Assembly (NCBI RefSeq): GCF_014635585.1 | Contig: NZ_BMDC01000002.1 | Coordinates: 248,001-312,000, forward strand | DNA from: Rothia aerolata | GTDB taxonomy: Bacteria > Actinomycetota > Actinomycetes > Actinomycetales > Micrococcaceae | Reading direction: 5' to 3' | DNA: 64,000 bases | Shown here: piece by piece, positions 28,414-58,794 of the stretch | Position numbering within the stretch: the first letter of the stretch is position 1 | Layout: every line of letters starts with the position of its first letter | Translations under genes and position numbers: made by a program | The notes under the pieces: generated by a model | Seen by the model: the letters and a program-made list of their open reading frames with translations, nothing else | What the model was told of the DNA's origin: nothing | The model's database searches: none

Positions 28414-28500
28414 GACGCCCTTAAACGCACGCTTCGCGATTCCGCTCACTTTTGAGTGCTCGCAAGCTCGCACCCGTATCGCTTCATCCCGATGCCAGTT
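28414..28500 (+). repeat. Constant-loop palindrome PE1a (long form)
   Basis: Loop 28417-28497 begins (G)CCCTTAAACGC and ends CCCGATGCCA, flanked by GAC and GTT, with an insert of about 58 nt (ACGCTTCGCGATTCCGCTCA ... CGCTTCATC) almost identical to that at 58707-58765. The flanking arms (CTGCCCGGCGAC; GTTGGCTGGGTCTGG) no longer pair with each other. The left one matches the arms of PE1b instead. Confidence 0.85.
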
Positions 28501-28561
28501 GGCTGGGTCTGGCTTTGTTCCGCCTGTGCAAGGGTAAGCGACCTCGCGGACCAGACCGTGA

Positions 28562-28627
28562 GGGTGCCTCTGCCCCGGCGACTGGCTCGGGGCTGGCGTT
28601 AAGGGTGTCGCCGGGGCAGAGGCACCC
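28562..28627 (-). repeat. Constant-loop palindrome PE1b (short form, inverted)
   Basis: Perfect 21-bp arms 28562-28582 and 28607-28627 (GGGTGCCTCTGCCCCGGCGA and complement). Read on the minus strand the 24-nt loop is ACCCTTAACGCCAGCCCCGA plus GCCA, the short constant loop with small changes. It stands in the convergent gap between dxr and pflA. Confidence 0.93.
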
Positions 28628-28676
28628 GCACACACCACCGCTCGTGGCATTTTATGCTGGGCTCCGCAGGAGGTAT

Positions 28677-29546
28677 TTAGTAAACAGTGAGGCCGCGGGC
28701 TCGGAACTGGTCGCGGATCCGCTCGACCTCTTGCTTGCTGGGCGGGTGTACGTCCTTGAGCTTGTAGTCCAGACCCAGGGTTTCCCACTTGTCGGTTCCC
28801 ATCTGGTGGAAGGGGAGCACCTCCACGCGGGTCACCGAGTTGGGCCAGCGGCAGACAATATCCGCCACGTTCTCCACGTTTTCGTAGGAGTCTGTGTAGC
28901 CGGGAACCGCCACAAAGCGAATCCAGACCTCTTTGCCAAGCTCGTTGAGCCGGTCGCCAAAGTCAATGGTGGGCTGTAGCGCGCGGCCGGTGAGATTATG
29001 GTAGGTTTCTTCGTCGCCGGATTTTACGTCGAGCAGAACCAGGTCAACGGATTCCAGAAAATCATCGCTGGCGTGAGCGCCCAGGAAGCCCGAGGTGTCA
29101 ATGCAGGTGTGGATTCCCATGGACTTTGCGCTCATCAGAATGTTCCAGGCGAAGGCGCGCTGCATGAGCACCTCTCCGCCGGAGATAGTGATGCCGCCGC
29201 CAGTGGACTTGAAGACCTTGCGGTAGCGCTTGATACGTTTGATAAGATCTTCAGCCTCGATGGGCTGGCCGTCTTTCATGTTGAACGTATCGGGGTTGTG
29301 GCAGTAGAGGCAGCGGAGAGGGCAGCCGTTCATGAAAATGGTCATGCGGGTGCCGGGACCGTCTACCGCAGTAACGAGCTCCCAGGAGTGGACAGAACCG
29401 AGTTTACCCTCGCGCATACGGGTGAGCTGCTCACTGCGTTCCAGGTCGGTCATTTCGCCCAGGCCCCAGGTGCCCGCACCGATATGGCGAGACGCCGGGG
29501 GAGCAAAATCCTGCTCCCCAGGCGTTTCTACCAGATGTGTAGTCAT
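28677..29546 (-). CDS. pflA: Pyruvate formate-lyase activating enzyme
   Basis: 289 aa. Radical-SAM cluster motif C-x3-C-x2-C at Cys75, Cys79 and Cys82 (NGCPLRCLYCHNPDT), then GGGITISGGEVLMQ and GSDEETYHNLTG-like DVKSGDEETYHNLTG. It uses SAM and a 4Fe-4S cluster to abstract hydrogen from the radical glycine of PFL under anoxia. About 45 residues precede the family's usual start. It is the last gene of pflB-grcA-pflA, 26 bp after the glycyl-radical subunit gene. A signal for read-through or a separate promoter in between is not evident. Confidence 0.95.
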   Translation of the reverse strand: MTTHLVETPGEQDFAPPASRHIGAGTWGLGEMTDLERSEQLTRMREGKLGSVHSWELVTAVDGPGTRMTIFMNGCPLRCLYCHNPDTFNMKDGQPIEAEDLIKRIKRYRKVFKSTGGGITISGGEVLMQRAFAWNILMSAKSMGIHTCIDTSGFLGAHASDDFLESVDLVLLDVKSGDEETYHNLTGRALQPTIDFGDRLNELGKEVWIRFVAVPGYTDSYENVENVADIVCRWPNSVTRVEVLPFHQMGTDKWETLGLDYKLKDVHPPSKQEVERIRDQFRARGLTVY

Positions 29547-29572
29547 TTGATTTATTCTACGGGTTTGTGTTC

Positions 29573-29830
29573 TTATGCGCCGTGATGGAAGGTACGGGAG
29601 AGAACATCCAGCTGCTGCTCGCGGGTCAGGCGAACGAAGTTCACTGCGTAGCCTGAAACACGAACGGTCAGGTTGGGGTAGTTCTCGGGGTGCTCCATTG
29701 CGTCTTCCAGAGTTTCCCGGTTGAGAACGTTAATGTTTGCGTGGTAGAGGCCGGAACCGGCCATGACCGGGTTGTTCGCGCGGTTTGCCTTCATATCTGC
29801 CAGGCGCTCATCAAAAGTCTTGACTGCCAT
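29573..29830 (-). CDS. grcA: Separate glycyl-radical subunit of pyruvate formate-lyase (GrcA-like)
   Basis: 85 aa from ATG 29830 with AAAGGAG upstream. Residues about 29-85 match the C-terminal tail of full-length [23 protein letters not shown], then [13 protein letters not shown] with the radical Gly in SGYA, ending [14 protein letters not shown]. The first 25 residues ([20 protein letters not shown]) have no PFL counterpart. Its gene starts 31 bp after the pflB stop. Because PflB here lacks this domain, the small protein should be a required partner rather than a rescue factor like E. coli YfiD. Confidence 0.92.
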
Positions 29831-29861
29831 GGTTATTACTCCTTTGTTTCTTATGGGGTGG

Positions 29862-31982
29862 TTAGTCTTCTTCGGGCACAAAGCCGGCGTCAAGAATACC
29901 AACCAGGTTCTTGATCTGATCTTCCTTGGTGCGGCCCAGTGCGGTGGGGGTAATGGTGTTGGTCAGGGAGATGCCGTCGAGGGCGTCCTGGTAATCCAGC
30001 TTGCCCACCGAGAGCATAGAGGCAACCATACCGTGGGTATCGTAACCGTTCTCGGGGTTTGCACCGGGGGAGAAGGGGGTACCTGCGCGGTGGCCGGAGG
30101 GGAAGCTACCGGTTGCCTTACCGTAGACCACGTTCGAGGTAATGGTCAGCACCGACTGGGTGGGAATAGCATCGCGGTACATCGGGATTGCCTTGATCTT
30201 AGACATCACGGTGTGAACGATGGTTGCTGCGATGTCGTCTGCGGCGTCGTCGTCATTACCGTAGGTGGGGAAGTCACCCTCGGTGATGTAGTCAACGATC
30301 AGGCCGGTCTCATCGCGAACCGGGGTCACCTTGGCGTACTTGATAGCTGACAGCGAGTCGGCAACAATCGACAGGCCGGCGATGCCGCAGCCCATTGCGC
30401 GGATGATGTCGGAGTCGTGCAGGGCCATCTCGATGGACTCGTAGGCGTACTTGTCGTGGCTGTAGTGAATGATGTTCAGAGCCTCAACGTAGGTGCCAAT
30501 CACCCAGTCGAGCATGTGCTCGTACTTATCCCAGACCTCGTCGAAGTCCAGCGGGCCGTCGCCGGAAATGGGCTCGTAACCCTCAACAACCTGCTTGCCG
30601 GTCATCTCATCGCGGCCACCGTTCATGGCGTAGAGCAGGGCCTTAGCGGCGTTCACGCGAGCACCGAAGAACTGCATCTGCTTGCCGACCTTCATGGGGG
30701 AGACACAGCAGGCAATAGCGGCGTCATCGCCCCACTGGTTACGAATCTGCGGGTCAGACTCGTACTGGATGGAGGAGGTCTCAATGGAAATAGCAGAGCA
30801 GAATTCCTTGTAGCCTGCGGGCAGGTTCTCGTCCCAGAAGATGGTGATATTCGGCTCGGGGGCGGGGCCCAGGTTACGCAGGGTCTGGAGCAGGCGGAAG
30901 GAGGTCTTGGTAACCAGGGTGCGACCGTCGTCAGCGAAGCCACCGTCAGACCAGGTTGCCCAGTAGGGGTCGCCGGAGAAAATCTGATCGTAATCAATGG
31001 TGCGCAGGAAGCGGGTGATGCGCAGCTTAATCACCAGAGCATCAATCATTTCCTGGGCGTCTGACTCGGTAATCAGACCAGCCTTGAGGTCACGCTCAAA
31101 GTAGGCGTCGAGGAATCCGGAGAGGCGGCCGATGGACATAGCGGCGCCGTCCTGGGACTTCACCGAAGCCAGGTAACCGAAGTAGGTCCACTGAACAGCT
31201 TCCTGGGCGGTCTGGGCGGGGCGGGAAATATCGAAACCGTACTTAGCCGCCATGTTCTTCAGACGACCCAGAGCCTTAATCTGCTCAGCGTGCTCCTCGC
31301 GGTAGCGGGCCCAGTGCTCGGAGAAGCCCTGGTCGGCTACGCGATCCTTGTCCTTCTGCTTCTCAGAAATCAGGAAGTCAACACCGTAGAGGGCGACGCG
31401 GCGGTAGTCGCCGATAATGCGGCCGCGACCGTAGGCATCGGGCAGACCGGTGATGATGTGGGAGGAACGAGCCGCACGAATACGAGGAGTGTAAATATCG
31501 AACACTGCATCGTTGTGGGTCTTGCGGTACTGGGTGAAAATCTTCTTAATCTCGGGGTTGGGTTCCTTGCCCGCTTCCTTAATAGCGGTCTCCACCATGC
31601 GCCAACCGCCGTTGGGCATCATAGCGCGCTTGAGCGGAACATCGGTCTGTAGACCCACGATGACGTCGTCGTCAGCGGAGATGTAGCCCGCATCAAAAGC
31701 GTCAATCTCAGCGGGGGTCTCGGTGTCTACATCGTAGACGCGCTGCTTACGCTCAACGGAGAGGTAGTCCTTCTCCAGGGTGTCCCACACGCGCAGAGTC
31801 TTCTCGGTGGGGCCTGCCAGGAAGGACGCGTCGCCCTCGTAGGGGGTGTAGTTGCGCATGATGAAATCACGAACATCAACGTGATTCTGCCACTCTCCGC
31901 CGACGAAACCCTTCCATGCCTCAGCCTTGGGGTCATTAGAGTCGAATTCGGATGCCTGAGCACGATCCGCGGTTACGGTCAT
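29862..31982 (-). CDS. pflB: Pyruvate formate-lyase, catalytic subunit lacking the glycyl-radical domain
   Basis: 706 aa from ATG 31982 (MTVTADR), nine bases after GAGGAG; the in-frame GTG at 31991 abuts that site. From [20 protein letters not shown] onward it parallels E. coli PflB. The catalytic Cys-Cys pair is in ACCVSPMK near residue 423. The protein stops after [26 protein letters not shown], the point where other PFLs continue into the radical-glycine tail; that tail is the next gene. It converts pyruvate and CoA to formate and acetyl-CoA anaerobically. Confidence 0.95.
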
Positions 31983-32385
31983 TGTCTGCACTCCTCAATG
32001 AGTTTTCGATGGAAACTTGTTTTTCAAGTTCGGGCTTGTTTTAAATCCTAGTCAAAATCAGATACTAAGGTGAAGTGATGAGTGTCTTAGGGAGGGAATG
32101 ACCTATACAAAATCCCCGGAATCATACGGATTCAGGCCCCTTCTATGCACCTAAATTATTTAAAAAGCAAGGGAAAATTAATCGGAATTTTTACTATTAC
32201 GTTTATGTATTTTGCACCTAAAGAATGAGGTGGTTGTGACCTTTAGTAATTCATTCACTTGCGGGTGAGTCTTATTCAAAAGGTCACACACGACAGCGCT
32301 CTCGGGCTGGAGACCCCACCTTTGAATAACCCAGGTACCCCATCGCAGGTAGTCTTTCAGGACTTCCCTAGCTAAACGTGGTTGT
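31983..32385. other. Divergent pflB / site-2 protease promoter region
   Basis: 403 bp without a gene. The 180 bp next to pflB are A/T-rich and suitable for a regulated promoter. The half nearer the protease gene contains the spaced inverted repeat at 32235-32288. No recognisable FNR or Rex palindrome was found by eye. Confidence 0.5.
32235..32288. promoter_or_regulatory. Spaced inverted repeat TGTGACCTTT/AAAGGTCACA
   Basis: Ten-bp perfect half-sites at 32235-32244 and 32279-32288, centres 44 bp (about four helical turns) apart. TGTGA/TCACA are CRP/FNR-type half-sites, but each arm here would be half of a site. Confidence 0.45.
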
Positions 32386-33726
32386 ATGGTCTGCATGGGA
32401 ATTGTGCTCTTCATTGTTGGCGTGCTGCTGATGGCGGTGGCTATTGCTCTATCCATCGCCCTGCATGAGATTGGCCACCTGGTGCCCGCCAAGCTCTTTG
32501 GCGTGCGGGTGCCGCAGTACATGATTGGTTTCGGCAAGACCGTGTTCTCCCGGAAGATAGGGGAGACCGAGTACGGGGTCAAGGCTGTTCCTCTGGGCGG
32601 CTATATTTCGATGATTGGCATGTACCCGCCGGAGAAGGGTGCCGCCAAGCCCGGTCGGCTGGCTGACCTTTACCGCCAGGCGCGAGAGGCAGATGCTGAG
32701 CGGATTACCAAAGCTGATCAGGGCCGCCTGTTTTATCAGCTGCCGGTCGTCAAGCGCATCATCATTATGCTGGGCGGGCCCACCATGAACCTGCTGATAG
32801 GTATTGTTGCCATGGCGGTGCTGATCATGGGCTTTGGCCAGCAGCAGCCCACCACCGCGATTGCCACTATTTCTCAGTGCGTGCAGTCGGTGAGCTCTAC
32901 CAATGTTGATCAGGAAGCCGGAACCGAGTGTGACGCCGCTGATCCGGCTTCTCCCGCCAGCGCAGCGGGTCTGAAGCCCGGCGATGAGATTGTTGGTTTT
33001 GCCGGCGAGTCCGTGACCTCCTGGGACCAGCTCTCTGAAGAAATCAAAACCCACGCCAATCAAGAAACCCCGGTCACCGTGGTCAGAGATGGTCGGCAGG
33101 TAGAGCTGACGATCACCCCCATGCTGACCACCCGCCCCATTCTCAACGACCTCTCTGGCCAGTTCGAGAAGAACGCAGACTGCACCTATCAGACCGAGGA
33201 CGTCGGTTTTATCGGCATTAGCCCCACTACCGAGCTAAAGCCCGGCTCAGTGTCTGAGGTGCTCCCCGCCGTCGGACAGTCGATGCAGCAGATGGGCTCT
33301 GCCCTGGTGAAGCTGCCGGTCAAGGTCTACGGCGTTGCTGAAACCCTGGTCACCAACGGGCAGCGGGCTGAGGACTCCCCGGTCTCAGTGGTGGGTGTGG
33401 GCCGGGTTGCCGGCGAAATCGCCGCCACCGACCAGATTGATCTGCACTCTAAGGCGGCCTCACTGGTTTCGCTGGTTGCCACCATGAACCTGATGCTCTT
33501 CCTCTTTAACCTGGTTCCGCTTTTGCCGCTGGACGGCGGCCACGTGCTGGGTGCCCTCTGGGAGGGCGCTCGCAAGCTCTTCGCCAAAATCTTCCGCAGG
33601 CCGCAGCCCGGCCCCTTTGACCCGGTGAAACTTCTGCCGCTGACCTGGGTGGTAGCGGGGGCCTTCCTGGGTATGTCGGTGATTCTGATTGCCGCCGACC
33701 TCTTCAAGCCGATTACAGTCTTTTAG
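32386..33726 (+). CDS. M50 site-2 protease (Rip1/RseP-like)
   Basis: 446 aa. First membrane helix carries the zinc motif HEIGH (residues 27-31); a PDZ domain follows (AASPAGLKPGDEIVGFAGESV-like: SAAGLKPGDEIVGFAG), and the third metal ligand lies in LLPLDGGHVLGALWEG near residue 381. It cleaves anti-sigma factors or other membrane substrates inside the bilayer. Actinobacteria typically have dxr, this protease, ispG and the GNAT gene in sequence; here dxr is separated by the pfl genes. Start could also be ATG 32395. Confidence 0.93.
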   Translation: MVCMGIVLFIVGVLLMAVAIALSIALHEIGHLVPAKLFGVRVPQYMIGFGKTVFSRKIGETEYGVKAVPLGGYISMIGMYPPEKGAAKPGRLADLYRQAREADAERITKADQGRLFYQLPVVKRIIIMLGGPTMNLLIGIVAMAVLIMGFGQQQPTTAIATISQCVQSVSSTNVDQEAGTECDAADPASPASAAGLKPGDEIVGFAGESVTSWDQLSEEIKTHANQETPVTVVRDGRQVELTITPMLTTRPILNDLSGQFEKNADCTYQTEDVGFIGISPTTELKPGSVSEVLPAVGQSMQQMGSALVKLPVKVYGVAETLVTNGQRAEDSPVSVVGVGRVAGEIAATDQIDLHSKAASLVSLVATMNLMLFLFNLVPLLPLDGGHVLGALWEGARKLFAKIFRRPQPGPFDPVKLLPLTWVVAGAFLGMSVILIAADLFKPITVF

Positions 33727-33747
33727 GCTTCGCTCATTTTGTCTGTT

Positions 33748-33846
33748 GCCGTGAGAACGGTCGCCAGCTGACCCTCTCGCGGGCTCGCTAGCGCTCGTAC
33801 CGCGATTCACGCCAGCCCCAGCCAGCTGGCGACCTGTTCTCACGGC
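33748..33846. repeat. Constant-loop palindrome PE6 (diverged form)
   Basis: Arms 33748-33770 and 33823-33846 (GCCGTGAGAAC-GGTCGCCAGCTG) are complementary apart from a single-base bulge. The 52-nt loop ends ACGCCAGCCCCAGC, close to the ACGCCAGCCCCGATGCCA end of the short form. It lies in the convergent gap between the site-2 protease and MOSC genes. Confidence 0.85.
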
Positions 33847-33860
33847 TCCCGACCGGGGAT

Positions 33861-34520
33861 TTAGCGAAGCAGCCTGGCCAGCTGGTCGTGGTGGTGCTTG
33901 GGCAGGCAAGCGGCCTCATAGACCTTGCGTGCCAGCTCCTTATCTCCCATCTTGGCGGCAAAAGCCTCGCCCATCGTGATTCCGTGGGCCGGCGGCGTCC
34001 TAAAAATCAGTTCGTCGCCGGGGCGGATTTCGCCCGGTTCCACCACGCGCAGGTAGGCGCCGCAGTCGCCGTGGGCGGTGAAGGTCTTGACCCAGCCTTT
34101 TTGCCCCAGCCATTCGGCGAAGGTGCGGCAGGGCTGGCGGGGCACGCTGACCTCTAGCAGGGCGGTGCCTATTTCTACCCGCTGATTAATGACAACCTCG
34201 CTCCAAGAGATTCCTTTGGTGGTGAGGTTTTCGCCGAAGGTGCCGTTGGTATAGGGGGAGCCGTTCAGCTTGCCCCAGTAGTCCAGCTCCTCGCGGGCAA
34301 AGGCGTAGACCGCCTTGTCTGCCCCGCCGTGGTGCTTGGTGTCGCCCACAACGTCGCCGCGCACACCGGGTCCGTCGCCGTAGTTCGGACCGGGAATGAA
34401 GACTTCGAGGACGGCGCGGGGCTGCTTGCAGATGCCGGTGAGGCGGTCTTCGCCGGTGGGGCAGGGGAAAGGGGCAGCGATATTGGTGGAGAGCACGCGG
34501 GGCTGGGAAGAAGCTGTCAT
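33861..34520 (-). CDS. MOSC domain protein (YiiM-like)
   Basis: 219 aa from ATG 34520 (MTASSQPRVLS); a longer in-frame start at 34544 is less likely. Sequence KHHGGADKAVYAFAREELDYW, GTFGENLTTKGI and PRQPCRTFAEWLGQKGW (with the conserved Cys that binds sulfur or molybdenum cofactor) define the MOSC/YiiM group. Such proteins help detoxify N-hydroxylated compounds through the molybdenum cofactor or bind thiols. Partner enzymes are not in the window. Confidence 0.88.
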   Translation of the reverse strand: MTASSQPRVLSTNIAAPFPCPTGEDRLTGICKQPRAVLEVFIPGPNYGDGPGVRGDVVGDTKHHGGADKAVYAFAREELDYWGKLNGSPYTNGTFGENLTTKGISWSEVVINQRVEIGTALLEVSVPRQPCRTFAEWLGQKGWVKTFTAHGDCGAYLRVVEPGEIRPGDELIFRTPPAHGITMGEAFAAKMGDKELARKVYEAACLPKHHHDQLARLLR

Positions 34521-34744
34521 GGTTTTTAATGTAATCGGTGCCACCTGCCAAAGCGAGAAGCTTTCGCTATTCGATCAGCCCAACTCCCGCTAGCTGAGAC
34601 AAAATTTCCGCCACAGACCCGTGTGATATGCCAGGCACGAGAAGCCTGGCTCTTGGGACTTACCTGCCCTGTAGTGCACAATAGAAAGCGATATCAATCG
34701 ACTTTCACAGGGTCGGTTGAACGAAAAGTCTTTGGAGGAATATC

Positions 34745-35917: not shown

Positions 35918-35948
35918 CCGCAACCAACCGAGAAAGCTACCGATTCCT

Positions 35949-37103: not shown

Positions 37104-37206
37104 GAGCTGCTTTTAGCAGATTAGCTTTTAGCGGTACACTGAAAAAGACTGTGCCCGCGCCGGCCAAAAATGCCGAAGATAGCGGGGGAGACCCAAGAAG
37201 AAACGG

Positions 37207-39015
37207 ATGACTCAGGTGACTATTTCTCGCCTCTCACAACTATTCGTGCGCACCCTGCGCGACAACCCGGCAGACGCCGAAGTCGCAAGCCACAAGCTGC
37301 TGGTTCGTGCCGGTTACATTCGCCGCACTGCCCCCGGTATTTACACCTGGTTGCCGCTGGGCCTGAAGGTTCTGGGCAAGGTAGAGAACGTCGTGCGGGA
37401 AGAAATGAACGCTATCGGTGCCCAGGAAGTTCACTTTCCGGCCCTGCTTCCCCGCGAACCCTACGAGGCAACCAACCGTTGGGACGAGTACGGCGATAAC
37501 CTCTTCCGCCTGAAAGACCGCCGCGGTGCAGATATGCTACTGGCACCCACCCACGAAGAAATGTTCACCCTGCTGGTCAAGGATCTCTACAGCTCCTACA
37601 AAGACCTGCCGGTCTACCTTTACCAGATTCAGACCAAGTACCGCGATGAGGCCCGCCCCCGCGCAGGCCTGCTGCGCGGCCGAGAATTCGTCATGAAGGA
37701 TTCCTACTCCTTCACCATGGACGACGAGGGCCTGGAAGAGGCTTACTTCGCCCACCGCAAGGCCTACCAGAAGATTTTTGAACGCCTGGGCCTGGAAATT
37801 GTGATTGTCAAGGCCCAGTCCGGCGCTATGGGCGGTTCCCGCTCCGAGGAATTCCTGCATCCAACCCCCATCGGTGAAGACACCTTCGTGCGCACCGAGG
37901 GCGGCTACGCGGCCAACGTTGAGGCGGTGACCACCGTGGTCCCAGAGCCCGTGGATGCCTCCAACACCCCCGCCGCAACCTTTGAGGCCACCCCCGATTC
38001 ACCCACCATCGAAACCCTGGTGAGCCAGTCCAACGCGCTGCACCCCCGCTCAGACCGGGAATGGACCGCCGCAGACACCCTCAAGAACGTGATTCTGGCC
38101 GTAATCGCTCCCGACGGCGAGCGCCACCTGGTAGCTATCGGCGTTCCCGGCGACCGCGAGGTTGATCTGGGCCGGGTAGAGGTTAACGTGGGTGCCCTGC
38201 TGGGCATTGGCGGTGAAGTCGAGGTCGAGGCCGCGAATGATGAGGACTTCAAGAAGTTCCCCCAGCTGGTCAAGGGCTACATTGGCCCCGGCTCCTCTCT
38301 GGACAACAAGATTCTGGGCAAGGAATCTGCCACCGGCATCCCCTTCTTCCTCGACCCCCGCCTGGTAGAGGGCTCGGCCTGGATTACCGGCGCCAACGAG
38401 TTCGAAAAGCATGCCTACAACATGGTGGTGGGCCGTGACTTCGAGGGCGACGGCGTTATCGAAGCCTGCGAGGTACGCGAGGGCGACCCCGCCCCCGATG
38501 GCTCCGGCCCCCTGATCGCCGCCCGCGGTATTGAGATGGGCCACATCTTCCAGCTGGGTCGCAAGTACGCCGAAGCGCTGGAACTGAAGGTTCTAGACAA
38601 CAACGGCAAGCTCCAGACCGTCACCATGGGCTCCTACGGCGTGGGTGTAACCCGTGCCCTGGCCGCCATCGCCGAGAAGAACCACGACGAGAAGGGCCTC
38701 ATCTGGCCCCGCAACATCGCCCCCTACGACGTACACATCGTGGCCACCGGCAAGGGAAATGAAGTGCTGGACGGCGCTGCGGAGCTGGCTGAGAAGCTCT
38801 CGGCAGCCGGCCTGGACGTGCTCTTCGACGACCGCCCCAAGGTCTCACCCGGCGTAAAGTTCGGTGACGCCGAACTGCTGGGTGTACCCACCTCCGTAGT
38901 GGTCGGCCGAGGCTTTGCAGACGGCAAGATCGAAATCAAAGACCGTGCCAGCGGAGAAGCACGCGAAATTTCTCTGGAAAACGCGGTCGAGGAAATCCTG
39001 GCGGAGGTTCGTTAG
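37207..39015 (+). CDS. proS: Proline--tRNA ligase, bacterial type
   Basis: 602 aa. Class II motifs: motif 1 around [14 protein letters not shown], motif 2 [22 protein letters not shown] (as [16 protein letters not shown]), motif 3 [14 protein letters not shown]. The insertion between motifs 2 and 3 is the editing domain that clears Ala-tRNA-Pro. It is followed by a constant-loop palindrome that may end transcription. ATG 37207 has AGAAGAAA upstream. Confidence 0.97.
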
Positions 39016-39027
39016 CTCAATCGCTTC

Positions 39028-39094
39028 GGAGGGCGCCGCACATCAACCTCCCTTAAACGCCAGCCCCGATGCCAGTTGATGCGCGGCGTCCTCC
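39028..39094 (+). repeat. Constant-loop palindrome PE2 (short form)
   Basis: Arms 39028-39047 and 39075-39094 match at 18 of 20 positions (GGAGGGCGCCGCACATCAAC). The 27-nt loop 39048-39074 reads CTCCCTTAAACGC-CAGC-CCCGATGCCA, identical to those at 46369 and 48772. Confidence 0.95.
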
Positions 39095-39208
39095 TACGCG
39101 CTTGGACTTCGCCCCGGCAGGCCGTCGAATCGCCGGCTGGCTAGGGCCGGCGACGTTGTCTGCCTGCAGGATACTGAGTCTCAACTTATCGGCTAGGAGA
39201 GGAAGCAC

Positions 39209-39988
39209 ATGGGCATCGAAAGTCTCGACCCCGCCACCATCGCGCTCGTCCTTGCCGCCGGCCTCTTCGCCGGGTGGGTGGACGCCGTCGTCGGCGGTGG
39301 CGGTCTCGTGCAGCTCCCCGCCGTCCTCATGATTCCCGGCCTCACCCCGGTTCAAGCCCTGGCGGTGAACAAGCTGGGTTCCTCCTGCGGCACCGCCGCC
39401 AGCGCCCTCACCTACTACCGGCGCACCACCAGCGATATCCGCACGGCCCTGCCCACCGCGGCGGTTGCACTGTGCGCCAGCTTCTGCGGGGCAATCGTGG
39501 CAACCCTGATACCGGCCTCCGCTTTCAAACCCATTATTCTCTTTGCCCTCATCGCGGTGCTGGCCTTTACCGTTCTCAAACCCGGGGCCGGCGAGCTGAC
39601 CCGCATGAAGCACACCGGGCGCAAGCACACCGCAATCGCCCTTGCCATTGGCCTGGTGATTGGCTTCTATGACGGCGTTTTGGGGCCCGGCACCGGCTCC
39701 TTCCTCATGATTTCCATGATTACCCTGCTGGGCTACAACTTTCTGCTAGCCACCGCCCAAACCAAAATCGTGAACCTGGCAACCAACATTGGAGCCCTGA
39801 TTTTCTTTGCCGTCTCGGGCAACGTCATCTGGGCCATTGGCCTGCTACTTGGGGCAGCCAACCTGGTGGGTGGCTACCTGGGCGCCCGCACCGCCATAGC
39901 CCGCGGTAACGGCTTTATCCGCATCATGATGATCTGCGTGGTATCAGCCCTGATTCTCAAGCTGGGCTTTGATATTTTCTTCGCCTAA
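39209..39988 (+). CDS. TSUP family transporter (TauE/SafE)
   Basis: 259 aa with about eight membrane helices in two similar halves. GLFAGWVDAVVGGGGLVQLPAVL (as AGWVDAVVGGGGLVQLP) and GFYDGVLGPGTGSFLM are the repeated TSUP motifs. The family moves sulfite, sulfonates or organic acids. GAGAGGAAGCAC precedes ATG 39209. It stands alone; no sulfur genes adjoin. Confidence 0.9.
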   Translation: MGIESLDPATIALVLAAGLFAGWVDAVVGGGGLVQLPAVLMIPGLTPVQALAVNKLGSSCGTAASALTYYRRTTSDIRTALPTAAVALCASFCGAIVATLIPASAFKPIILFALIAVLAFTVLKPGAGELTRMKHTGRKHTAIALAIGLVIGFYDGVLGPGTGSFLMISMITLLGYNFLLATAQTKIVNLATNIGALIFFAVSGNVIWAIGLLLGAANLVGGYLGARTAIARGNGFIRIMMICVVSALILKLGFDIFFA

Positions 39989-39995
39989 GCCGCGC

Positions 39996-46253: not shown

Positions 46254-46273
46254 GCTAATGAGCTAACGCGTTT

Positions 46274-46305
46274 GAGGGCGGGCTGGCGTGTGCTAGCCCG
46301 CCCTC
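46274..46305 (+). terminator. Hairpin after infB
   Basis: GAGGGCGGGCT/AGCCCGCCCTC with a ten-base loop; no T tract follows, so it may be a pause or processing hairpin. Confidence 0.6.
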
Positions 46306-46348
46306 TGACGTGTGGGCTACTGAGAAAGCTGTTGTAGTTCATGCTTTC

Positions 46349-46415
46349 GCGGGCGGCGGTCGCTCGACCTCCCTTAAACGCCAGCCCCGATGCCAGTCGA
46401 CCGCCCGCCGCCCAC
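46349..46415 (+). repeat. Constant-loop palindrome PE3 (short form)
   Basis: Arms 46349-46368 and 46396-46415 pair at 17 of 20 positions (GCGGGCGGCGG...CTCGAC). The 27-nt loop 46369-46395 is identical to PE2 and PE4. The closing pair is GAC/GTC here instead of AAC/GTT, a compensated change. Confidence 0.92.
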
Positions 46416-46507
46416 TCAAGCTACCGCCCGTCGTCCGCCCTCGCATACCTTCACCGGTTGGTAGACTGGTGACCAAGTACGTTTTCAATCAATCTCAAGG
46501 AGAAACC

Positions 46508-48749: not shown

Positions 48750-48820
48750 ATGGGGCATCGCATCAATCAACCTCCCTTAAACGCCAGCCCCGATGCCAGT
48801 TGATTGATGCGATGCCCCAT
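48750..48820 (+). repeat. Constant-loop palindrome PE4 (short form, perfect)
   Basis: Perfect 22-bp arms 48750-48771 and 48799-48820 (ATGGGGCATCGCATCAATCA and complement) around the same 27-nt loop as PE2 and PE3 (48772-48798). Confidence 0.97.
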
Positions 48821-48907: not shown

Positions 48908-49870
48908 GTGGAACTGTACCGAGAACTCAGTGAGGTGCCCGCCGATTTTGGGCCCTCGGTGGTGACCATAGGTAACTTTGACGGCGTGCACACCGGCCAC
49001 GCCGAGGTTTTGGGTACCGTGGTGCGGCTGGCCCGCGAGAACAAGCTGGTCTCGGCAGCTATCTCCTTTGACCCCCACCCCTCGCAGGTGCACCGGCCAG
49101 AATCAGCCCACATCGAGATTATGGGCCAGCAAGACCGCCAGCGCTTCTTTCGGGAACTCGGCCTCGACTGCTACCTGCTCATCCACTACACCCTCGAATT
49201 TTCCCGGCAGAGCCCCGAAGAGTTCGTGCGCTCTGTTCTGGTAGAAACCCTGAACGCCCGCTACGTGGTTATCGGCGACGACGTCCGCTTCGGCCACAAG
49301 AACTCCGGCGACCTCTCCACCATGCAGCAGCTGGGAGAAAAGTACGGCTTTACCGTGGTAGCCATTGCAGACCTCATGGCAGATGAAACCCACCGCACCT
49401 CATCCACCCGCATCCGCGAGCTACTCGAAGCCGGAAACGTAGAAGAGGCAGGCCGCCTACTGGGCCGGCCCCACCTGATGACCGGCGAAATCATCCACGG
49501 CGAAGCCCGCGGCAGAGAACTGGGCTTTCCCACCGCCAACATGGCTTTCGACTCCAGCGGCTACGTACCGGCGGACGGCGTCTACGCGGGCTGGCTCATT
49601 GACGAAAACGGCACCCGCCACCCGGTAGCCACCTCGGTAGGCACCAACCCCACCTTTGAGGGCGTCAACCGCCGCACGGTAGAAGCCCACGTGATTGGCC
49701 GCCCCGAAGAGCCGGTAGAAAACTTCAACCTCTACGGGCAGAAAGTCTCCCTGGAATTCACACACCACCTTCGCCCCATGGTTGCCTACACCGGGGTGGA
49801 GGCGCTGATTGAACAGATGAACCAGGACGTGGACGACGCTAAGCGCCTGCTCGGCCTCGACTCCGAATAG
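48908..49870 (+). CDS. ribF: Bifunctional riboflavin kinase/FAD synthetase
   Basis: 320 aa, GTG start with AAGGAG seven bases upstream. N-terminal nucleotidyltransferase: VVTIGNFDGVHTGHAEVL and SSTRIRELLEAGNVEEAGRLLGRP (as SSTRIRELLEAGNVEEA); C-terminal flavokinase: GEARGRELGFPTANM and GVYAGW, NPTFEG. It converts riboflavin to FMN and FAD. No FMN riboswitch precedes it. It ends the rimP-ribF block and is convergent with the aldo/keto reductase. Confidence 0.97.
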   Translation: MELYRELSEVPADFGPSVVTIGNFDGVHTGHAEVLGTVVRLARENKLVSAAISFDPHPSQVHRPESAHIEIMGQQDRQRFFRELGLDCYLLIHYTLEFSRQSPEEFVRSVLVETLNARYVVIGDDVRFGHKNSGDLSTMQQLGEKYGFTVVAIADLMADETHRTSSTRIRELLEAGNVEEAGRLLGRPHLMTGEIIHGEARGRELGFPTANMAFDSSGYVPADGVYAGWLIDENGTRHPVATSVGTNPTFEGVNRRTVEAHVIGRPEEPVENFNLYGQKVSLEFTHHLRPMVAYTGVEALIEQMNQDVDDAKRLLGLDSE

Positions 49871-49880
49871 TTCGCTTTGT

Positions 49881-50206: not shown

Positions 50207-50244
50207 CAGATGGAATCAGACACCGAGCTGCCACCGCGGCGTCC

Positions 50245-51072: not shown

Positions 51073-51082
51073 GATTTTTCCT

Positions 51083-51820: not shown

Positions 51821-52287
51821 TAGGCCATCACCTTCTCCCAGCTATCACGCTGAGCAAGGAAGTCCCGCACGGCAGTCTGGGCTTCTTCCAGAGAGTGGTT
51901 GGCACCCCAGCCGCACTGAACCTCATTAGCAGCGGGAACCTCGTCAGCGTCGAGAAGATCCTGCATGGTTTTCTCTAGGATGGGGAAGAATTCTTCGGGC
52001 TCGAGCCCCTGGGTGAGCGCGTAGAAGCCGGTCTGGCAGCCCATGGGCGAAAAATCGATGAGGGCATCGGTGTGGTTGCGCATGTGGTGGGCGGTCATGT
52101 GCTCAATAGAATGGATTGCCTTCATGCCCAGGTGAGCCTTGTTGGGCTGGGTAAAGCGCACATCGTATTTCACCAGCTCCACACCGGGGGCAACCTCTTT
52201 GCGGCCGGCCACGCGAACGTAGGGGGCTGCAACCGCGGTGTGGTCAAGATCGAACGATTCAACGTTGGTTTTCTGTGTATCAGTCAT
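51820..52287 (-). CDS. luxS: S-ribosylhomocysteine lyase
   Basis: 155 aa from ATG 52287 ([12 protein letters not shown]). Metal ligands in HSIEH (His59, His63; catalytic Glu62), the catalytic Cys84 in MGCQTGFY, and the C-terminal Cys of NEVQCGW. It cleaves S-ribosylhomocysteine to homocysteine and DPD, the AI-2 precursor. First gene of luxS-mtnN-aldo/keto reductase. AI-2 signalling in the organism is possible, but metabolic detoxification alone would explain the pair. Confidence 0.96.
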
Positions 52288-52415
52288 ACTTACTATTCTT
52301 TCGCACATTTGCCCTGCCGGGCTAGCCACGTTACTGTGTCGTAATTTTGTTGAATTTTCAGCTTTCTTTCGGAGAGCGGGTCTAAGGTGAGAGCGGTTAA
52401 CTAGAAAGGATGATC

Positions 52416-52718
52416 ATGAACGCTCTTGTTCCTACCGCTTCAGCAACCGCAGGTTTGATTGGTGGCTATTCTCTGGCCCGTATCACCGGTGTTCGCGCTG
52501 TGGGTGGCATTGGCCTGGCTGCCGGAGGCGCCGCAGCATTTTGCGGCTGGAAGGCCAACCGCGGTGCCGGTGTAGCCGCCGCTCTGACCGGCGTTTACCT
52601 GGGTGCCTTTGGCTACTCCCACGCGCTGGCTAAGAAAATTGGCGCTTGGCCCTCGGTGCTGACCGTCACCGGAGCAACCGCGGCTGCTTCGCTGGCTTTT
52701 GGCGGCCCGAAGAAGTAA
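52416..52718 (+). CDS. Small glycine/alanine-rich membrane protein
   Basis: 100 aa from ATG 52416, with AAAGGA five bases upstream (an in-frame ATG lies at 52410). Four short hydrophobic segments rich in Gly and Ala (GLIGGYSLARITG, VGGIGLAAGGAAAF, GVAAALTGVYLGAFGYSH) suggest a compact membrane protein. No family recognised. A G/C-rich hairpin follows at about 52725-52768. Confidence 0.75.
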   Translation: MNALVPTASATAGLIGGYSLARITGVRAVGGIGLAAGGAAAFCGWKANRGAGVAAALTGVYLGAFGYSHALAKKIGAWPSVLTVTGATAAASLAFGGPKK

Positions 52719-52839
52719 CCTGCCCGCCCCTCTCCGTCAGGAGCCGGCTTCTGAGCAGGGGGAGGGGCCCGTTTCGCCCTGCCCGCTGTCAGCAGGTAAT
52801 CTTTGACCTAGACAGCAATTCAACAGATGGTGGTAGACA

Positions 52840-54300
52840 ATGGCAGAAAAGTCACGCTTGACCGGCGACCGGCCGGCTCAGAGACAGGGTTCATCCCTCG
52901 CACAGACTGAAGCCCAGCATATGGCCGAGCACCGAGCCCTCAAGCGTGGCCTCACCCTCCGGCACGTACTCTTTATCGCACTGGGCTCAGCCATTGGCAC
53001 CGGCCTCTTCTACGGTTCAGCTTCGGCTATTCAGCTGGCGGGGCCCTCCGTTTTGCTGGCCTACGTGATCGGCGGTGCCGCCGTCTTTATGGTGATGCGG
53101 GCGATGGGTGAGATGGCTCTGGCCCACCCGGTGGCGGGCTCTTTTTCCGAGTACGCCACCCTCTATTTGGGCAGGGGAGCCGGTTTCGTTACAGGCTGGA
53201 CTTTCGCGCTGGAAATGGCCTTTGTTGCCATTGCAGACGTGACCGCCTTTGCCACCTACATGAAACTGTGGTTTCCCACCACTCCCAGCTGGGTCTGGAT
53301 TTCCAGCCTGATTTTGGTGATTCTTGCCATTAACCTCTCCAAGGTCAAGGCCTTTGGTGAGACTGAATTCTGGATGACCCTCATTAAGGTCGCCGCCATC
53401 ATCGCCATGATCGCCGGCGGCGTCATCCTACTCATCTTTGGCGCCACCATGACCGGCGGCGACATTCAGCCCTCGGTCACCAACCTCTGGGACGAAGGCG
53501 GCTTCTTCCCCCACGGCATCACCGGCTTCCTCGCCTGCTTTACCGTGGTCATGTTTGCTTTCGGCGGCGTGGAAACCGTGGGCATCGCCGCGGGGGAGAC
53601 AGAAAATCCCAAGGTCTCTATTCCTAAGGCAATCAACACCCTGCCGGTACGTATTCTGCTCTTCTATATTCTGACCCTGGCAGTCATTATGTCCCTCTAC
53701 CCCTGGCACGAGATTTCGGGGGAGACCTCGCCTTTCGTGCAAATTTTTGAGGGCCTGGGTATTCCCGCGGCAGCCCACATTCTCAACGTCGTGGTGGTTA
53801 CCGCCGCCGTCTCGGCCATGAACGCTGACTTCTACGCCGCCGGCCGTATGCTCTACGGCCTGGCCCAGCGAGGCATGGCCCCCAAATCTTTCAATAAGGT
53901 GGCTAAGAACGGCACCCCCTTCATGACTGTCATCTGCATGGGCGTGGTCATGGTGGTGGGCGTGCTGGTCAATATCTTCTTTGAAAACGCCTTCATGCTG
54001 GTTGCGGCCGTTGCCACCTTCGCCACCGTGATGGTCTGGGTAATGATTCTGCTGGCCCACATCGCTTTCAAGAAGAAAACCAGTCACCCCACCGACTTTC
54101 CCGTGCCCGGCTGGCCCTTTGCCTCCTACCTGGCGCTGGCCTTTATGGTTTTTGCGGTGGTGCTCTTCGCCTTCTTTGAAGATACCCAGCTGGCGCTGAT
54201 TGCAGGCCTGGTCTGGTGCCTGCTGCTTGCCGTGGTGTACGCGGTGTTTTTGAGGGGGAAGAAGGACGACGCCGCCGGCGCCGAAGCGGCGCGCCCTTAA
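52840..54300 (+). CDS. Amino acid permease (APC superfamily)
   Basis: 486 aa, 12 membrane helices after a 40-residue N-terminus. GSAIGTGLFYGSASAIQLAGPSVLLAYVIGG (as GSAIGTGLFYGSASA) is the APC helix-1 motif; EMALAHPVAGSFSEYA and FGGVETVGIAAGETENP match the AroP/ProY/GabP subfamily. It would import an amino acid by proton symport; the specific substrate is not evident. Stands alone between small membrane gene and rpsO. Confidence 0.9.
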   Translation: MAEKSRLTGDRPAQRQGSSLAQTEAQHMAEHRALKRGLTLRHVLFIALGSAIGTGLFYGSASAIQLAGPSVLLAYVIGGAAVFMVMRAMGEMALAHPVAGSFSEYATLYLGRGAGFVTGWTFALEMAFVAIADVTAFATYMKLWFPTTPSWVWISSLILVILAINLSKVKAFGETEFWMTLIKVAAIIAMIAGGVILLIFGATMTGGDIQPSVTNLWDEGGFFPHGITGFLACFTVVMFAFGGVETVGIAAGETENPKVSIPKAINTLPVRILLFYILTLAVIMSLYPWHEISGETSPFVQIFEGLGIPAAAHILNVVVVTAAVSAMNADFYAAGRMLYGLAQRGMAPKSFNKVAKNGTPFMTVICMGVVMVVGVLVNIFFENAFMLVAAVATFATVMVWVMILLAHIAFKKKTSHPTDFPVPGWPFASYLALAFMVFAVVLFAFFEDTQLALIAGLVWCLLLAVVYAVFLRGKKDDAAGAEAARP

Positions 54301-54464
54301 GTGGCGTTCGTCCTGCTGAACATCACTAAACATCATGTATAGTGGAGACCGCATGTGACTGCAGTCCGTGGTTGTCACCTGCAGCGGCCGACTTTTAGGC
54401 CCTCACCCCGGCACCAAAAATGGTGATCGGGCCGTAACACGGCACTAACTCTAGGAGTTATACA

Positions 54465-54734
54465 GTGGCACTTGATCCCGCCATCAAGCAGGAAATTATG
54501 AAGGAATACGCAACTCACGAAGGTGACACCGGTTCACCCGAGGTGCAGATTGCAGTTCTGTCTCGTCGTATCACCGACCTGACCGAGCACCTGAAGTTCC
54601 ACAAGCACGACCACCACTCACGTCGTGGTCTGATGATCCTCGTTGGTCGTCGCCGTAACATGCTCGGTTACCTCAAGCGTGTTGACATCGAACGCTACCG
54701 TGCTCTGATTGAGCGCCTGGGTCTGCGTCGATAA
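54465..54734 (+). CDS. rpsO: 30S ribosomal protein S15
   Basis: 89 aa, GTG start at 54465, AGGAG upstream. [28 protein letters not shown] (in part [17 protein letters not shown]) and [19 protein letters not shown] are diagnostic. It binds the 16S central domain. The 100-bp leader contains CTGCAG repeats and a GGCCC...CACC-AAAAA-TGGTG...GGGCC hairpin at about 54396-54434, a possible autoregulatory S15 site. A strong hairpin separates it from pnp. Confidence 0.97.
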
Positions 54735-54743
54735 GTAGAGTTT

Positions 54744-54788
54744 GCGAGGGCGGTTCCGCTGGTTTTTCTGGCGGTTCCGCCCTCTCGC
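54744..54788 (+). terminator. rpsO-pnp hairpin
   Basis: GCGAGGGCGG pairs with CCGCCCTCTCGC around a loop with T5; likely a partial terminator or RNase processing site. Confidence 0.7.
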
Positions 54789-54985
54789 TCATTCATTTGA
54801 AGAGTTTTAGCCGGTAAAATTACCGGTGGTCCTATAAATATTCTGCCCGGCGCGGGTGATCGGTTGGCGGTCCTCGGTTGCGGTTTACGGAGCTAGCCCT
54901 GAGTGTACGGGGCAGTGCCGTGTGCTCCAATCGATGATCGATTGCCGAACTCGCGCGGGTAGAAATGAGATGAAATGGAGGAACC

Positions 54986-57226
54986 TTGGAAGGTCCCGAA
55001 ATTCAGTTTGCAGAAGCAATCATTGACAACGGCAAGTTCGGCAAGCGCACCGTGCGCTTTGAGACCGGCCGTTTGGCGAAGCAGGCCGCTGGCTCAGCGC
55101 TGGTGACCATTGACGACGAAACCACCCTGCTCTCGGCTACCGCTATCGGTAAGTCCCCCCGCGACGGTTTCGACTTCTTCCCCCTGACCGTGGATGTTGA
55201 AGAGCGTATGTACGCTGCCGGTAAGATTCCCGGCTCCTTCTTCCGCCGTGAGGGTCGCCCCACCACCGAGGCTATTTTGGCAGCCCGCCTGATTGACCGC
55301 CCCCTGCGCCCGGCCTTCAAGAAGGGTCTGCGCAATGAGGTTCAGGTAGTTGTCTCGGTGCTGACCATTGAGCCCGATGAAATTTACAACACCGTGGCTA
55401 TCAACGCGGCTTCGGCTTCGACCACCCTTTCGGGTGCGCCCTTCTCGGGCCCCATCGGTGGTGTGCGTGTTGCCCTGATTGAGGGCCAGTGGGTAGCTTT
55501 CCCCAAGTTCTCCCAGCTCGAAAAGGCAACCTTTGACATGGCGGTTGCCGGTCGTCTGGTAACCCGCGCTGACGGTAGCGAAGACGTTGCCATCATGATG
55601 GTTGAGGCTGAGGCTACCGATAACTCTTGGAAGCTCATTAAGGAAGAGGGCGGCACCGCCCCCACCGAGGAGATCGTTGCTGAGGGTCTGGAAGCAGCTA
55701 AGCCCTTCATCAAGGCTCTCTGCGATGCTCAGAACGCACTGAAGGAGCAGGCTGGCAAGCCCGCCCTGGATCTGCCCACCTTCGGCTCCCACGGTGAAGA
55801 CGTGGACGCCGCTGTGCGCGAGTACGCCGAGCAGAAGGTAGTGGAGGTTTACTCCATTGCCGGTAAGCAGGAGCGTGAAGAAGCCTCTGCTGATCTACAG
55901 CAGGAAATCGTTGAAGCCCTGGGCGGTGAAGGCAAGGAGTTCGAGGGTCGCGAGGATGAAATCAACGCGGCTTTCAACGCCCTGACCAAGCACATTGTGC
56001 GCCAGCGGATTCTGACCGAGCAGGTTCGTATCGACGGCCGTGGCCTGACCGATATCCGCCAGCTCACCGCTGAGGTTGAGGTTCTGCCCCGAGTTCACGG
56101 TTCCGCTATCTTCGAGCGTGGCGAGACCCAGATTATGGGCGTAACCACCCTGAACATGCTCAAGATGGAGCAGCAGCTGGATTCGCTCTACCCGGTCAAG
56201 TCCAAGCGCTACATCCACCACTACAACTTCCCGCCCTACTCCACCGGTGAGACCGGCCGCGTGGGTTCACCCAAGCGCCGCGAAATCGGCCACGGTGCCC
56301 TGGCTGAGCGCGCTCTGACCCCGGTTCTGCCCTCCCGCGAGGAATTCCCCTACGCGATTCGCCAGGTATCTGAGGCTCTGGGCTCCAACGGCTCAACCTC
56401 CATGGGTTCGGTCTGTGCCTCCACCCTGTCCCTGCTCAACGCCGGTGTGCCCCTGCGTGCTCCCGTGGCAGGTATCGCTATGGGTCTGGTTTCTGATGAG
56501 GTGGACGGCGAAACCCGCTACGCTGCGCTGACCGATATTCTCGGTGCTGAGGACGCCCTGGGCGATATGGACTTCAAGGTGGCGGGTACCTCTGAGTTCG
56601 TCACCGCTATCCAGCTGGATACCAAGCTCGACGGCATTCCTGCCTCTGTGCTGGCCGGTGCGCTGACCCAGGCTCGCGAGGCCCGCCTGCACATTCTCGA
56701 TGTGCTCACCGCTGCTATCGATGCTCCCGACGAGATGAGCGATTTCGCACCCCGTGTGATTTCCGTGAACGTGCCCGTCTCCAAGATTGGTGAGGTCATT
56801 GGCCCCAAGGGCAAGATGATCAACCAGATCCAGGAAGACACCGGTACCGATATCTCTATTGAGGACGACGGCACCGTCTACATCGGCGCAACCGACGGCC
56901 CCTCTGCCGAGGCAGCCCGCGCAGCAATCAACGCCATTGCTAACCCGCAGGTTCCCGAGGTGGGCGAGCGCTACCTGGGCACCGTCGTCAAGACCACCAC
57001 CTTCGGCGCTTTCGTCTCCCTGACTCCGGGTAAGGACGGCCTGCTGCACATCTCCGAGCTGCGCAAGCTCAACGACGGCAAGCGCGTGAACGACGTTGAA
57101 GAGGTTGTCTCCGTGGGCCAGAAGGTTCAGGTGGAGATCACCAAGATTGATGACCGTGGCAAGCTCTCGCTGGCTCCGGTTGTTGCTGACGACGCTGCTG
57201 AGGAATCTGAGGAAGACTCCGAATAG
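54986..57226 (+). CDS. pnp: Polyribonucleotide nucleotidyltransferase
   Basis: 746 aa, TTG start at 54986 behind GGAGGAACC. Two RNase PH domains ([36 protein letters not shown] and [20 protein letters not shown], each shown in part), then KH ([17 protein letters not shown], near residue 600) and S1 ([20 protein letters not shown]). It degrades RNA phosphorolytically. Acidic tail EESEEDSE. The 250-bp leader may carry the usual pnp autoregulation. Confidence 0.97.
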
Positions 57227-57246
57227 TAGCTTCTTGAGCTAGATTC

Positions 57247-57283
57247 AAGGTGCGGGGCTCACTGAGGTGGGCCCCGCACCTTT
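57247..57283 (+). terminator. pnp terminator
   Basis: AAGGTGCGGGGC/GCCCCGCACCTT with a 12-base loop and a short T run. Confidence 0.85.
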
Positions 57284-57309
57284 CCCATGCAAAGTGTAAA
57301 GGAAGATAC

Positions 57310-58641
57310 ATGCCCACCACCCTGTCTCTATCGCTAGCTGACCTCGAGGGTGAGCTTGATTTCCGCACCGGGCGACTGCTTGAGGCCGGCCCCGGAGGAA
57401 ACGAAATTCGCCGGTCGATCCTTCCCGGCGGCGTCCGCATTATCACCGAGCGGATGCCCTCTCTGCACTCTGTGGCTATTGGTTTTTGGGCGGGAGTGGG
57501 TTCCCGCGATGAGGCTCCGGGTATGCTGGGCTCCACCCACTTTCTAGAGCACCTGCTCTTCAAAGGAACCACCACCCGCTCGGCGCTGGATATTGCCCAC
57601 GCCTTTGACGCGGTGGGTGGTGAGTCCAACGCCCTGACCGCCAAGGAGCACACCTGCTACTACGCTCGGGTGCTCAGCGAAGATACACCCATGGCGATTG
57701 ACACCCTGGCCGATATGGTTTCTTCGGCGGTGCTTGACCCCGAGCTGCTAGAGCAGGAACGCGGGGTAATCCTCGAAGAGATTGCAATGGACCAGGATGA
57801 CCCCACCGACGTTGCCTTCGAGAACTTTGTTCAGCAGCTGATGGGGGAGCACCCGCTGGGTCGGCCGATTGGTGGCACTCCCGAAGAGATCCAGGCGGTG
57901 CCCCGCGATAAGGTCTGGGAGCACTACCGAAAGTACTACACCCCCGACCGGCTGGTGATTTCCGCAGCCGGGGGCCTGGAGCACAGCCAGATTGTGGAGC
58001 TGGTGCTCACCGCGCTCGAAAAATACGGCTGGAACCTGCACGAGGGCATCATGCCCGCAGACCGCCGGGTGCGATCCCGGGTGCAGACCACGCCCCTAGC
58101 CCGCGAAAAGGTCATCGAAAAAGGCTTTGAACAGACCAACATCGTGATGGGCTGCCCCGGCCTGATTGCCGGGGACGACCGCCGCTACGCCATGAGCGTG
58201 CTCAACGCTGCCCTGGGCGGAGGAATGTCCTCTCGCCTCTTCCAGGAAATTCGCGAGAAGCGCGGTCTTGCCTACTCCACCTTCTCTTTCTCTGGCTCCT
58301 ACTCCGACGCCGGCTACTTCGGCCTCTACGCCGGTTGCCTGCCCGCCAAGGTGGATCAGGTGATGGAGCTGATGCGCGGTGAGTTCGCCAAGGTAGCAGC
58401 CGAGGGACTAACCGAGGCAGAACTTGCCAAGGTGGTGGGCCAGCTGGGCGGCGCGACGATTATGGGCTCTGAGGACGCCGGCTCCCGCATGTCGCGCCTG
58501 GGCAGGGCAGAACTGGACTCGGGGCTCTATATCGGCCTGGACGAGCTGCTGGAGAGAATCCGTGCGGTGACCCTGGACGAGGTGCGCGATCTCGCAGCCT
58601 ACCTGGCAAGCCAAGAGATGGTCACCACCATCGTGAAGTAA
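57310..58641 (+). CDS. M16 family zinc peptidase
   Basis: 443 aa from ATG 57310 with AAAGGAAG upstream; an earlier in-frame start covers the pnp terminator. Inverted zinc motif H-x2-E-H at His77-Glu80-His81 (STHFLEHLLFKGT), with the downstream Glu in ETPMAIDTL...ERGVILEEIAMDQDD. It is the single-chain, 50-kDa class found after pnp in actinobacteria (processing-peptidase-like). Cytosolic; it degrades peptides. Likely promoter sharing with pnp is limited by the terminator. Confidence 0.92.
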   Translation: MPTTLSLSLADLEGELDFRTGRLLEAGPGGNEIRRSILPGGVRIITERMPSLHSVAIGFWAGVGSRDEAPGMLGSTHFLEHLLFKGTTTRSALDIAHAFDAVGGESNALTAKEHTCYYARVLSEDTPMAIDTLADMVSSAVLDPELLEQERGVILEEIAMDQDDPTDVAFENFVQQLMGEHPLGRPIGGTPEEIQAVPRDKVWEHYRKYYTPDRLVISAAGGLEHSQIVELVLTALEKYGWNLHEGIMPADRRVRSRVQTTPLAREKVIEKGFEQTNIVMGCPGLIAGDDRRYAMSVLNAALGGGMSSRLFQEIREKRGLAYSTFSFSGSYSDAGYFGLYAGCLPAKVDQVMELMRGEFAKVAAEGLTEAELAKVVGQLGGATIMGSEDAGSRMSRLGRAELDSGLYIGLDELLERIRAVTLDEVRDLAAYLASQEMVTTIVK

Positions 58642-58674
58642 GCTCTGACACCTCATCAAAGGTTAAGTATCCAG

Positions 58675-58794
58675 CCCGAGCGCGCTGGCCAACCTCCCTT
58701 AAACGCACGCTTCGCGATTCCGCTCACTCCTGAGTGCTCGCAAGCTCGCACCCGTGTCGCTTCATCCCGATGCCAGTTGGCCAGCGCGCTCGGG
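58675..58794 (+). repeat. Constant-loop palindrome PE5 (long form, perfect arms)
   Basis: Perfect 19-bp arms 58675-58693 and 58776-58794 (CCCGAGCGCGCTGGCCAAC and complement), extended further out by TCAAAGGT (58656) with ACCTTTGA (58806). The 82-nt loop begins CTCCCTTAAACGC and ends CCCGATGCCA as in the short form, with the same insert of about 58 nt as PE1a (about 3 differences). Confidence 0.96.

Follow-up and report, generated by a model that had tools for sequence, protein, structure and literature searches.

A hairpin repeat family of Rothia with a constant core and self-complementary arms that may be remade at each copy

The known repeats nearest in kind to the element described here are miniature inverted-repeat transposable elements (MITEs), the non-autonomous elements of DDE transposons, and repetitive extragenic palindromic (REP) elements. 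The element, a hairpin in which a constant core lies between self-complementary arms, occurs at seven sites, all read directly in the sequence, in a window of 64,000 nucleotides of Rothia aerolata (positions 248001-312000 of contig 2 of a genome of 2.46 Mb in seven contigs). One form of it is MITE-like: copies with shared arms measure ∼120-180 bp, possess terminal inverted repeats and short target duplications, and are found in many intergenic places. Unlike MITEs, a second form with unique arms shows no terminal repeats on both sides in R. aerolata, and its internal arms change in pairs while the core stays. Integron attC sites have their conserved letters at the outer ends, whereas those of the Rothia element are at the tip. 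The attC sites are portrayed in passages of PMC2727003 as hairpins of unrelated stem sequence that are recognised by structure.

REP elements and the bacterial interspersed mosaic elements (BIMEs), which go with a REP-associated tyrosine transposase (RAYT, or TnpA-REP), are likewise small intergenic palindromes in many copies, and the six facing pairs of the Rothia element in R. aerolata add to the likeness. According to sections of PMC3733652, REP elements have a conserved stem and, at one end, a conserved tag; in the Rothia element, by contrast, the tip is conserved and the stem differs between loci, and the Y1 transposase family (PF01797) is absent from the R. aerolata genome (it is present in 3 of 35 genomes of the genus). 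The nearest known process is template switching at quasipalindromes, in which, as parts of PMC7202029 and PMC8604942 report, one arm is corrected from the other to yield perfect palindromes. Such arm-from-arm correction mutates an existing place, whereas the Rothia case involves a constant core and copies that arise at new places. The LIMP palindromes of Lobosphaera incisa mitochondria possess, in excerpts of PMC4524435, an invariant 7-nt loop and palindromic stems and are always intergenic; the stems repeat one fixed pentanucleotide according to the same excerpts, whereas Rothia stems are locus-specific. Among the literature matches listed, with the subscription literature mostly outside their coverage, none describes such repeats in Rothia. 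The reading that we favour, and to which we give an even chance, is that the element is a small non-autonomous mobile DNA hairpin of Rothia whose constant core is kept and whose arms are remade by fold-back copying.

Core types and self-complementary arms

Three core types were recognised in the R. aerolata genome: a 27-nt short loop, an 81-82-nt long loop whose ends are nearly the same as those of the short loop, and a second short type of ∼24 nt. The short loop yielded 39 genome-wide matches (≤3 mismatches) versus none for the reversed pattern; three of these matches fall in the window, compared with 0.01 expected from shuffled sequence. The long-loop end yielded 21, one of which is a remnant inside another copy.

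An earlier reading of the window, made from the sequence alone, had proposed a constant loop with self-complementary arms, and this was borne out far beyond chance. The mean stem score of the 39 short R. aerolata copies was 19.8, versus 6.0 with arms re-paired between loci. In 25 copies chosen for ungapped stems, from which we built a covariance model, 96.2% of stem cells were paired (58.8% in shuffles) and 198 double changes were counted (53.7 in shuffles). The same held beyond R. aerolata: 108 short-type copies from 14 genomes (near-identical matches merged, a few half copies and long-type pieces included) had a mean stem score of 16.7 versus 3.4 in controls, and a score of at least 12 was reached by 96 of them versus 16 of 1067 controls. 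At this threshold, 69 of 73 R. aerolata copies have matching arms (39/39 short, 17/21 long and 13/13 of the second type), so that the refuting condition named in the earlier reading, that loop copies elsewhere usually lack complementary flanks, did not hold. The core can nevertheless occur without a matching stem, as in the remaining four of the 21 long copies and in the half copies L139, L247 and L248.

At an E-value of 0.01 the covariance model gave 72 matches in R. aerolata, with one place counted on both strands, and 15 of 35 Rothia genomes, R. aerolata included, had matches; among the weakest, a few (L171, L182 and L192) are ordinary hairpins that lack the core. An exact-pattern scan of one genome per species returned one named match, Rothia terrae. 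When 149 genomes of the family were searched with stricter filters, and at most 31 candidates per genome were scored, matches appeared in four, and the only one outside the genus among these candidates was an ordinary hairpin (L256). Viral contigs held no match to the exact loop pattern, and the plasmids and phages searched held no match to the element. We also considered whether a mobile gene might separate the two halves of the loop. With ≤2 mismatches, the 5′ half has 60 matches in the R. aerolata genome, and no gene lay there in any of the matches inspected, which were not all 60; two of these matches are long cores, one truncated (L139), the other decayed and lacking matching arms (L140).

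The sequence-only reading had further held that arm sequences are unrelated between loci, which applies to part of the family. Among 60 short- and long-core R. aerolata copies, 33, including the copy at 58.7 kb of the window, have a common arm family (CAGCCCGAG...); another family criterion placed 31 there. The arms of the other 27 are no more alike than shuffled sequence (best match 9.19 vs 8.76), except that those of L004 and L011 resemble each other. Short loops with unique arms are perfect in 11 of 17 cases. When 15 singleton arms were compared with ∼258 kb of R. aerolata sequence (overlaps included), most matched only the arms of their own element, and some (14-19 nt) gave a few further matches.

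Shared-arm copies often lie inside the terminal repeats GAGGCTTATTCA / TGAATAAGCCTC, which are present on both sides in 10 of 31 such copies in R. aerolata. Among 27 shared-arm copies with GGCTTATTCA-like ends, drawn from several genomes (weaker overlapping matches and L258 omitted; a few may be mutual orthologues), 10 are flanked at their ends by a direct repeat of 3 bp, where 0.4 would be expected and none of 20,000 permutations gave as many; the length and offset of this repeat were chosen from 128 combinations, and the result concerns the shared-arm form. It is well supported that this form spread in the manner of a MITE, as one unit of GAGGCTTATTCA terminal inverted repeats, shared arms and core, duplicating 3 bp of the target. 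The other form shares the core and has arms unlike those of any other known copy.

A longer core had matches in all 12 related genomes searched. In one of these, G033, where 14 of 15 longer-core matches were analysed, the stem score averaged 17.8 versus 2.1 for re-paired arms (maximum 11 over 182 pairs), and divergence was 0.59 in the arms and 0.13 in the core. Eleven of the 14 copies have arms of their own (scores 13-26); the shared type is seen in L271, L282 and L291. Since G033 repeats the pattern with a different core, the rule is not bound to one loop sequence or one genome. Long-core copies in G020 and G026 are mostly common-armed, with mean arm divergences of 0.25 and 0.23.

Inheritance of arms and origin of the symmetry

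At eight orthologous places the mean divergence, averaged over loci, was ∼0.07 for the left arm, 0.04 for the right arm and 0.04 for the loop. Between different places within one genome (31 pairs), the arms diverged by 0.52 and 0.49, which is near random for the measure used, and the loop by 0.08. The arms are hence alike at orthologous places and unrelated between places, and were therefore not carried unchanged from place to place.

This contrast bears on the possibility that several old subfamilies of the whole element, distinguished by their arms, were copied like MITEs and diverged, the core being held in common by gene conversion or strong selection. The 33 shared-arm copies, many with terminal repeats and target duplications, and the mutually similar long-type copies of G020 and G026 are what such a history would leave, and R. 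aerolata loops are indeed far more alike than arms and flanks (in the shared-arm set, divergence is 0.033 in the loop, 0.25/0.29 in the arms and 0.47 in the outer flank). It does not readily account for the 27 R. aerolata and 11 G033 copies whose cores are alike and whose arms resemble no others examined; conversion would need to end at the core edge every time, and orthologous loops and arms change at about the same rate. We consider these subfamilies an unlikely explanation.

Comparison with relatives indicates what was gained or lost with a copy. Both arms are absent from the element-free relative at locus d, L142/L244 and L295/L310, and less cleanly so at L296/L314; because they are gone together with the element, the arms are part of the unit that was inserted or deleted. 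An earlier suggestion, linking a mobile core with an inverted duplication of the DNA at its flanks, is supported as to the core and the duplication, but not as to the flanking origin. At locus a, the same spacer of the 'empty' species is occupied by a long-core hairpin whose arms differ, and at L143/L245 the terminal repeats are retained while arms and core are different. L294 occurs in both G033 and G032. Presence of the element differs between related species, and at every place the comparisons leave both gain and loss possible.

The empty places also bear on the idea that the core is a tiny insertion targeting the tips of ordinary gene-end hairpins, the arms being old terminator stems. Insertion elements that target palindromes are known, the core sits centrally in its palindrome, and 28 of 32 copies with a co-oriented upstream gene start 6-47 nt past its stop codon. 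(The set comprised 54 elements, one of the 21 long-core copies among them, from which five overlapping called open reading frames were dropped; the reading frames were called in this analysis.) However, the empty places at locus d, L142/L244 and L295/L310 lack the arms, and a T-rich stretch, as expected of an intrinsic terminator, follows only 7 of 49 R. aerolata copies. Ordinary gene-end hairpins reach a score of at least 15 in 4 of 48 cases in the window and 17 of 268 in G032, versus 37 of 39 element arms by closely similar scoring. Some copies lie past another hairpin (infB-rbfA and L142). We regard insertion into pre-existing tips as quite improbable, and that the arms are ordinary terminators already present is unlikely. 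The initial impression that all copies follow plus-strand genes does not extend to the genome, where the loop lies on either strand relative to its neighbours.

When the symmetry of the arms arises can be judged by comparing copies within and between genomes. Among nine shared-arm R. aerolata copies, 193 of 249 differing stem positions were paired in both copies compared (these are counts of pairs of copies, not of events). Orthologues at six loci, by contrast, differ at 22 stem positions, at each of which pairing is lost in at least one copy (loci e and g, with internal stem bulges, duplicate rows, L193 and L185 excluded). The 586 stem positions contained 7 G-T and 8 A-C mismatches; there is no excess of G-U, and therefore no strand is favoured as a selected RNA would predict. 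Where the neighbouring genes run in tandem, the loop is on their strand in 16 cases and on the opposite strand in 11. Because paralogues show compensation and orthologues unpairing, without G-U excess and with little strand preference, we read the symmetry as made at the birth of a copy. Across the 108 copies, more loop errors accompany poorer stems (Spearman -0.40, p 2e-5). From such sequence comparisons, the symmetry looks like a property of copy birth followed by neutral decay, and not of a selected RNA.

That the element is a functional RNA or DNA hairpin whose loop is bound by a host factor, with stems drifting under selection for pairing, would suit its very strong covariation, the compensated arm changes of shared-arm copies, the nearly invariant R. 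aerolata loop and the location near gene ends, but is quite improbable given the balance of mismatches and of strands, the loss of pairs from orthologous stems and the variable presence among related species. The mismatches, strands and orthologous stems likewise give no support to the proposal that a recognition site is displayed on RNA.

For the reading in which a mobile hairpin keeps its core and has its arms remade, we infer both the copying step and the source of the arms. The core would be the part that must be kept and is needed for copying. Copying, by fold-back or template switching, would proceed through a folded single strand in which one arm is written from its partner. A change arising in one arm, or an arm that came from elsewhere, would in this way become a near-perfect new inverted repeat at birth; thereafter the copy would decay as neutral spacer DNA. 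A more far-reaching version, which we put forward only tentatively and think doubtful, is a new mode of mobility in which the ∼27-80-nt core spreads alone and a fresh near-perfect inverted repeat of 20-30 bp is written around it at each new place through fold-back and copying of one arm, the tip alone being inherited.

Several observations weigh against the arms being remade in this way. No transposase or other enzyme could be tied to the elements, the Y1 family having been searched and other transposase families not. Terminal repeats on both sides are present in none of 29 unique-arm R. aerolata copies. Within R. aerolata taken by itself, the number of loop errors shows no significant relation to stem score (Spearman -0.16, p 0.27), the low loop divergence in the shared-arm set could reflect selection on the loop, and the within-genome and between-genome contrasts come from different species. 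Finally, locus e and L199/L246 show a single arm with no loop, which would fit copying of a flank and would fit deletion as well. Copying of the target flank, first suggested by these two places, lost weight: G026 seems to retain traces of the loop at locus e, G005 and G028 are not sisters in a tree of 30 loci, and other empty places lack both arms.

Copies in the window and neighbouring repeats

The window copies are compiled in Table 1. The 27-nt loop CTCCCTTAAACGCCAGCCCCGATGCCA is present at the three sites where it had been noticed; the arms have 19, 17 and 22 Watson-Crick pairs among the 22 nearest the loop, in order of position. The altered loop in inverted orientation near 28562 was confirmed as well. 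Long loops are found at both ∼28.4 and ∼58.7 kb, though the former is without matching arms, and the earlier list of sites had left off the truncated copy. A scan of the window against Rfam at the gathering threshold gave two transfer RNAs and no other RNA family match.

Table 1. Copies of the hairpin element in the window (window coordinates)
Position	Strand	Feature	Surroundings and details
28417..28497	+	Long core, 81 nt, without matching arms	Between dxr (27064-28377) and a radical SAM gene (28677-29546, minus strand); left side similar to an arm of the adjacent copy
28558..28631	-	Hairpin, 24-nt second-type core (28583-28606), 25-nt arms 96% complementary	Faces the long core at 28417
32269..32332	-	Truncated copy, one shared-type arm, both terminal repeats GTCTTATTCA / TGAATAACCC	Core and second arm missing
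39026..39096	+	Hairpin, 27-nt short core (39048-39074), locus-specific arms, 19/22 pairs	Downstream of proS (37207-39015), upstream of a TauE-family gene (39209-39988)
46343..46421	+	Hairpin, 27-nt short core (46369-46395), 26-nt arms 81% complementary	infB-rbfA spacer, past another hairpin (46261-46318)
48750..48820	+	Hairpin, 27-nt short core (48772-48798), arms 22/22 paired	Precedes a ribF-like gene (48908-49870)
58653..58816	+	Long-core copy (core 58694-58775), shared-type arms	Between an M16 peptidase gene and an acyltransferase gene; inner pairs 21/22, 41-nt arms 80% complementary

The facing pair at 28.4 kb (L130) is one of six in R. aerolata, the others being L124, L126, L129, L132 and L001. 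The two copies of each pair lie near one another, a plus-strand core coming first and a minus-strand core second, and five of the six join a second-type core to a short or long one. L184 and L188 (loci b and c) contain tandem direct repeats, each made up of the core's 3′ half together with the right arm. Short-type cores contain the direct repeat GCCAG-n5..7-GCCAG, and the R. aerolata short core starts with CCTCCCTTAA, which resembles the anti-Shine-Dalgarno sequence.

The window also contains another repeat (CGAACGGTGGATTTTAGGCTTAATTTT), seen as two long hairpins at 1046-1102 and 7402-7458 with 27-nt arms and a 3-nt loop, beside gene ends. At 10042-10107 there is a perfect 30-bp hairpin with the arm TACAAGC.TGGTCCCTGAGTACAAG, which is similar to the sequence beside the truncated core in L139; the two together are possibly a third hairpin repeat.

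Implications for repeat families and palindrome origin

Conserved stems or ends are the usual mark by which a repeat family is recognised. In the Rothia element conservation lies at the tip, and the stem, though symmetric, is not inherited, and therefore repeat finders and RNA-structure methods would both misread the element. Covariation of such strength would usually pass as proof of a functional RNA. The comparison of copies within a genome with the same place between species separates two causes of covariation and could serve elsewhere. If fold-back copying is true, the Rothia element would be a natural system for the origin of long perfect palindromes in bacteria.

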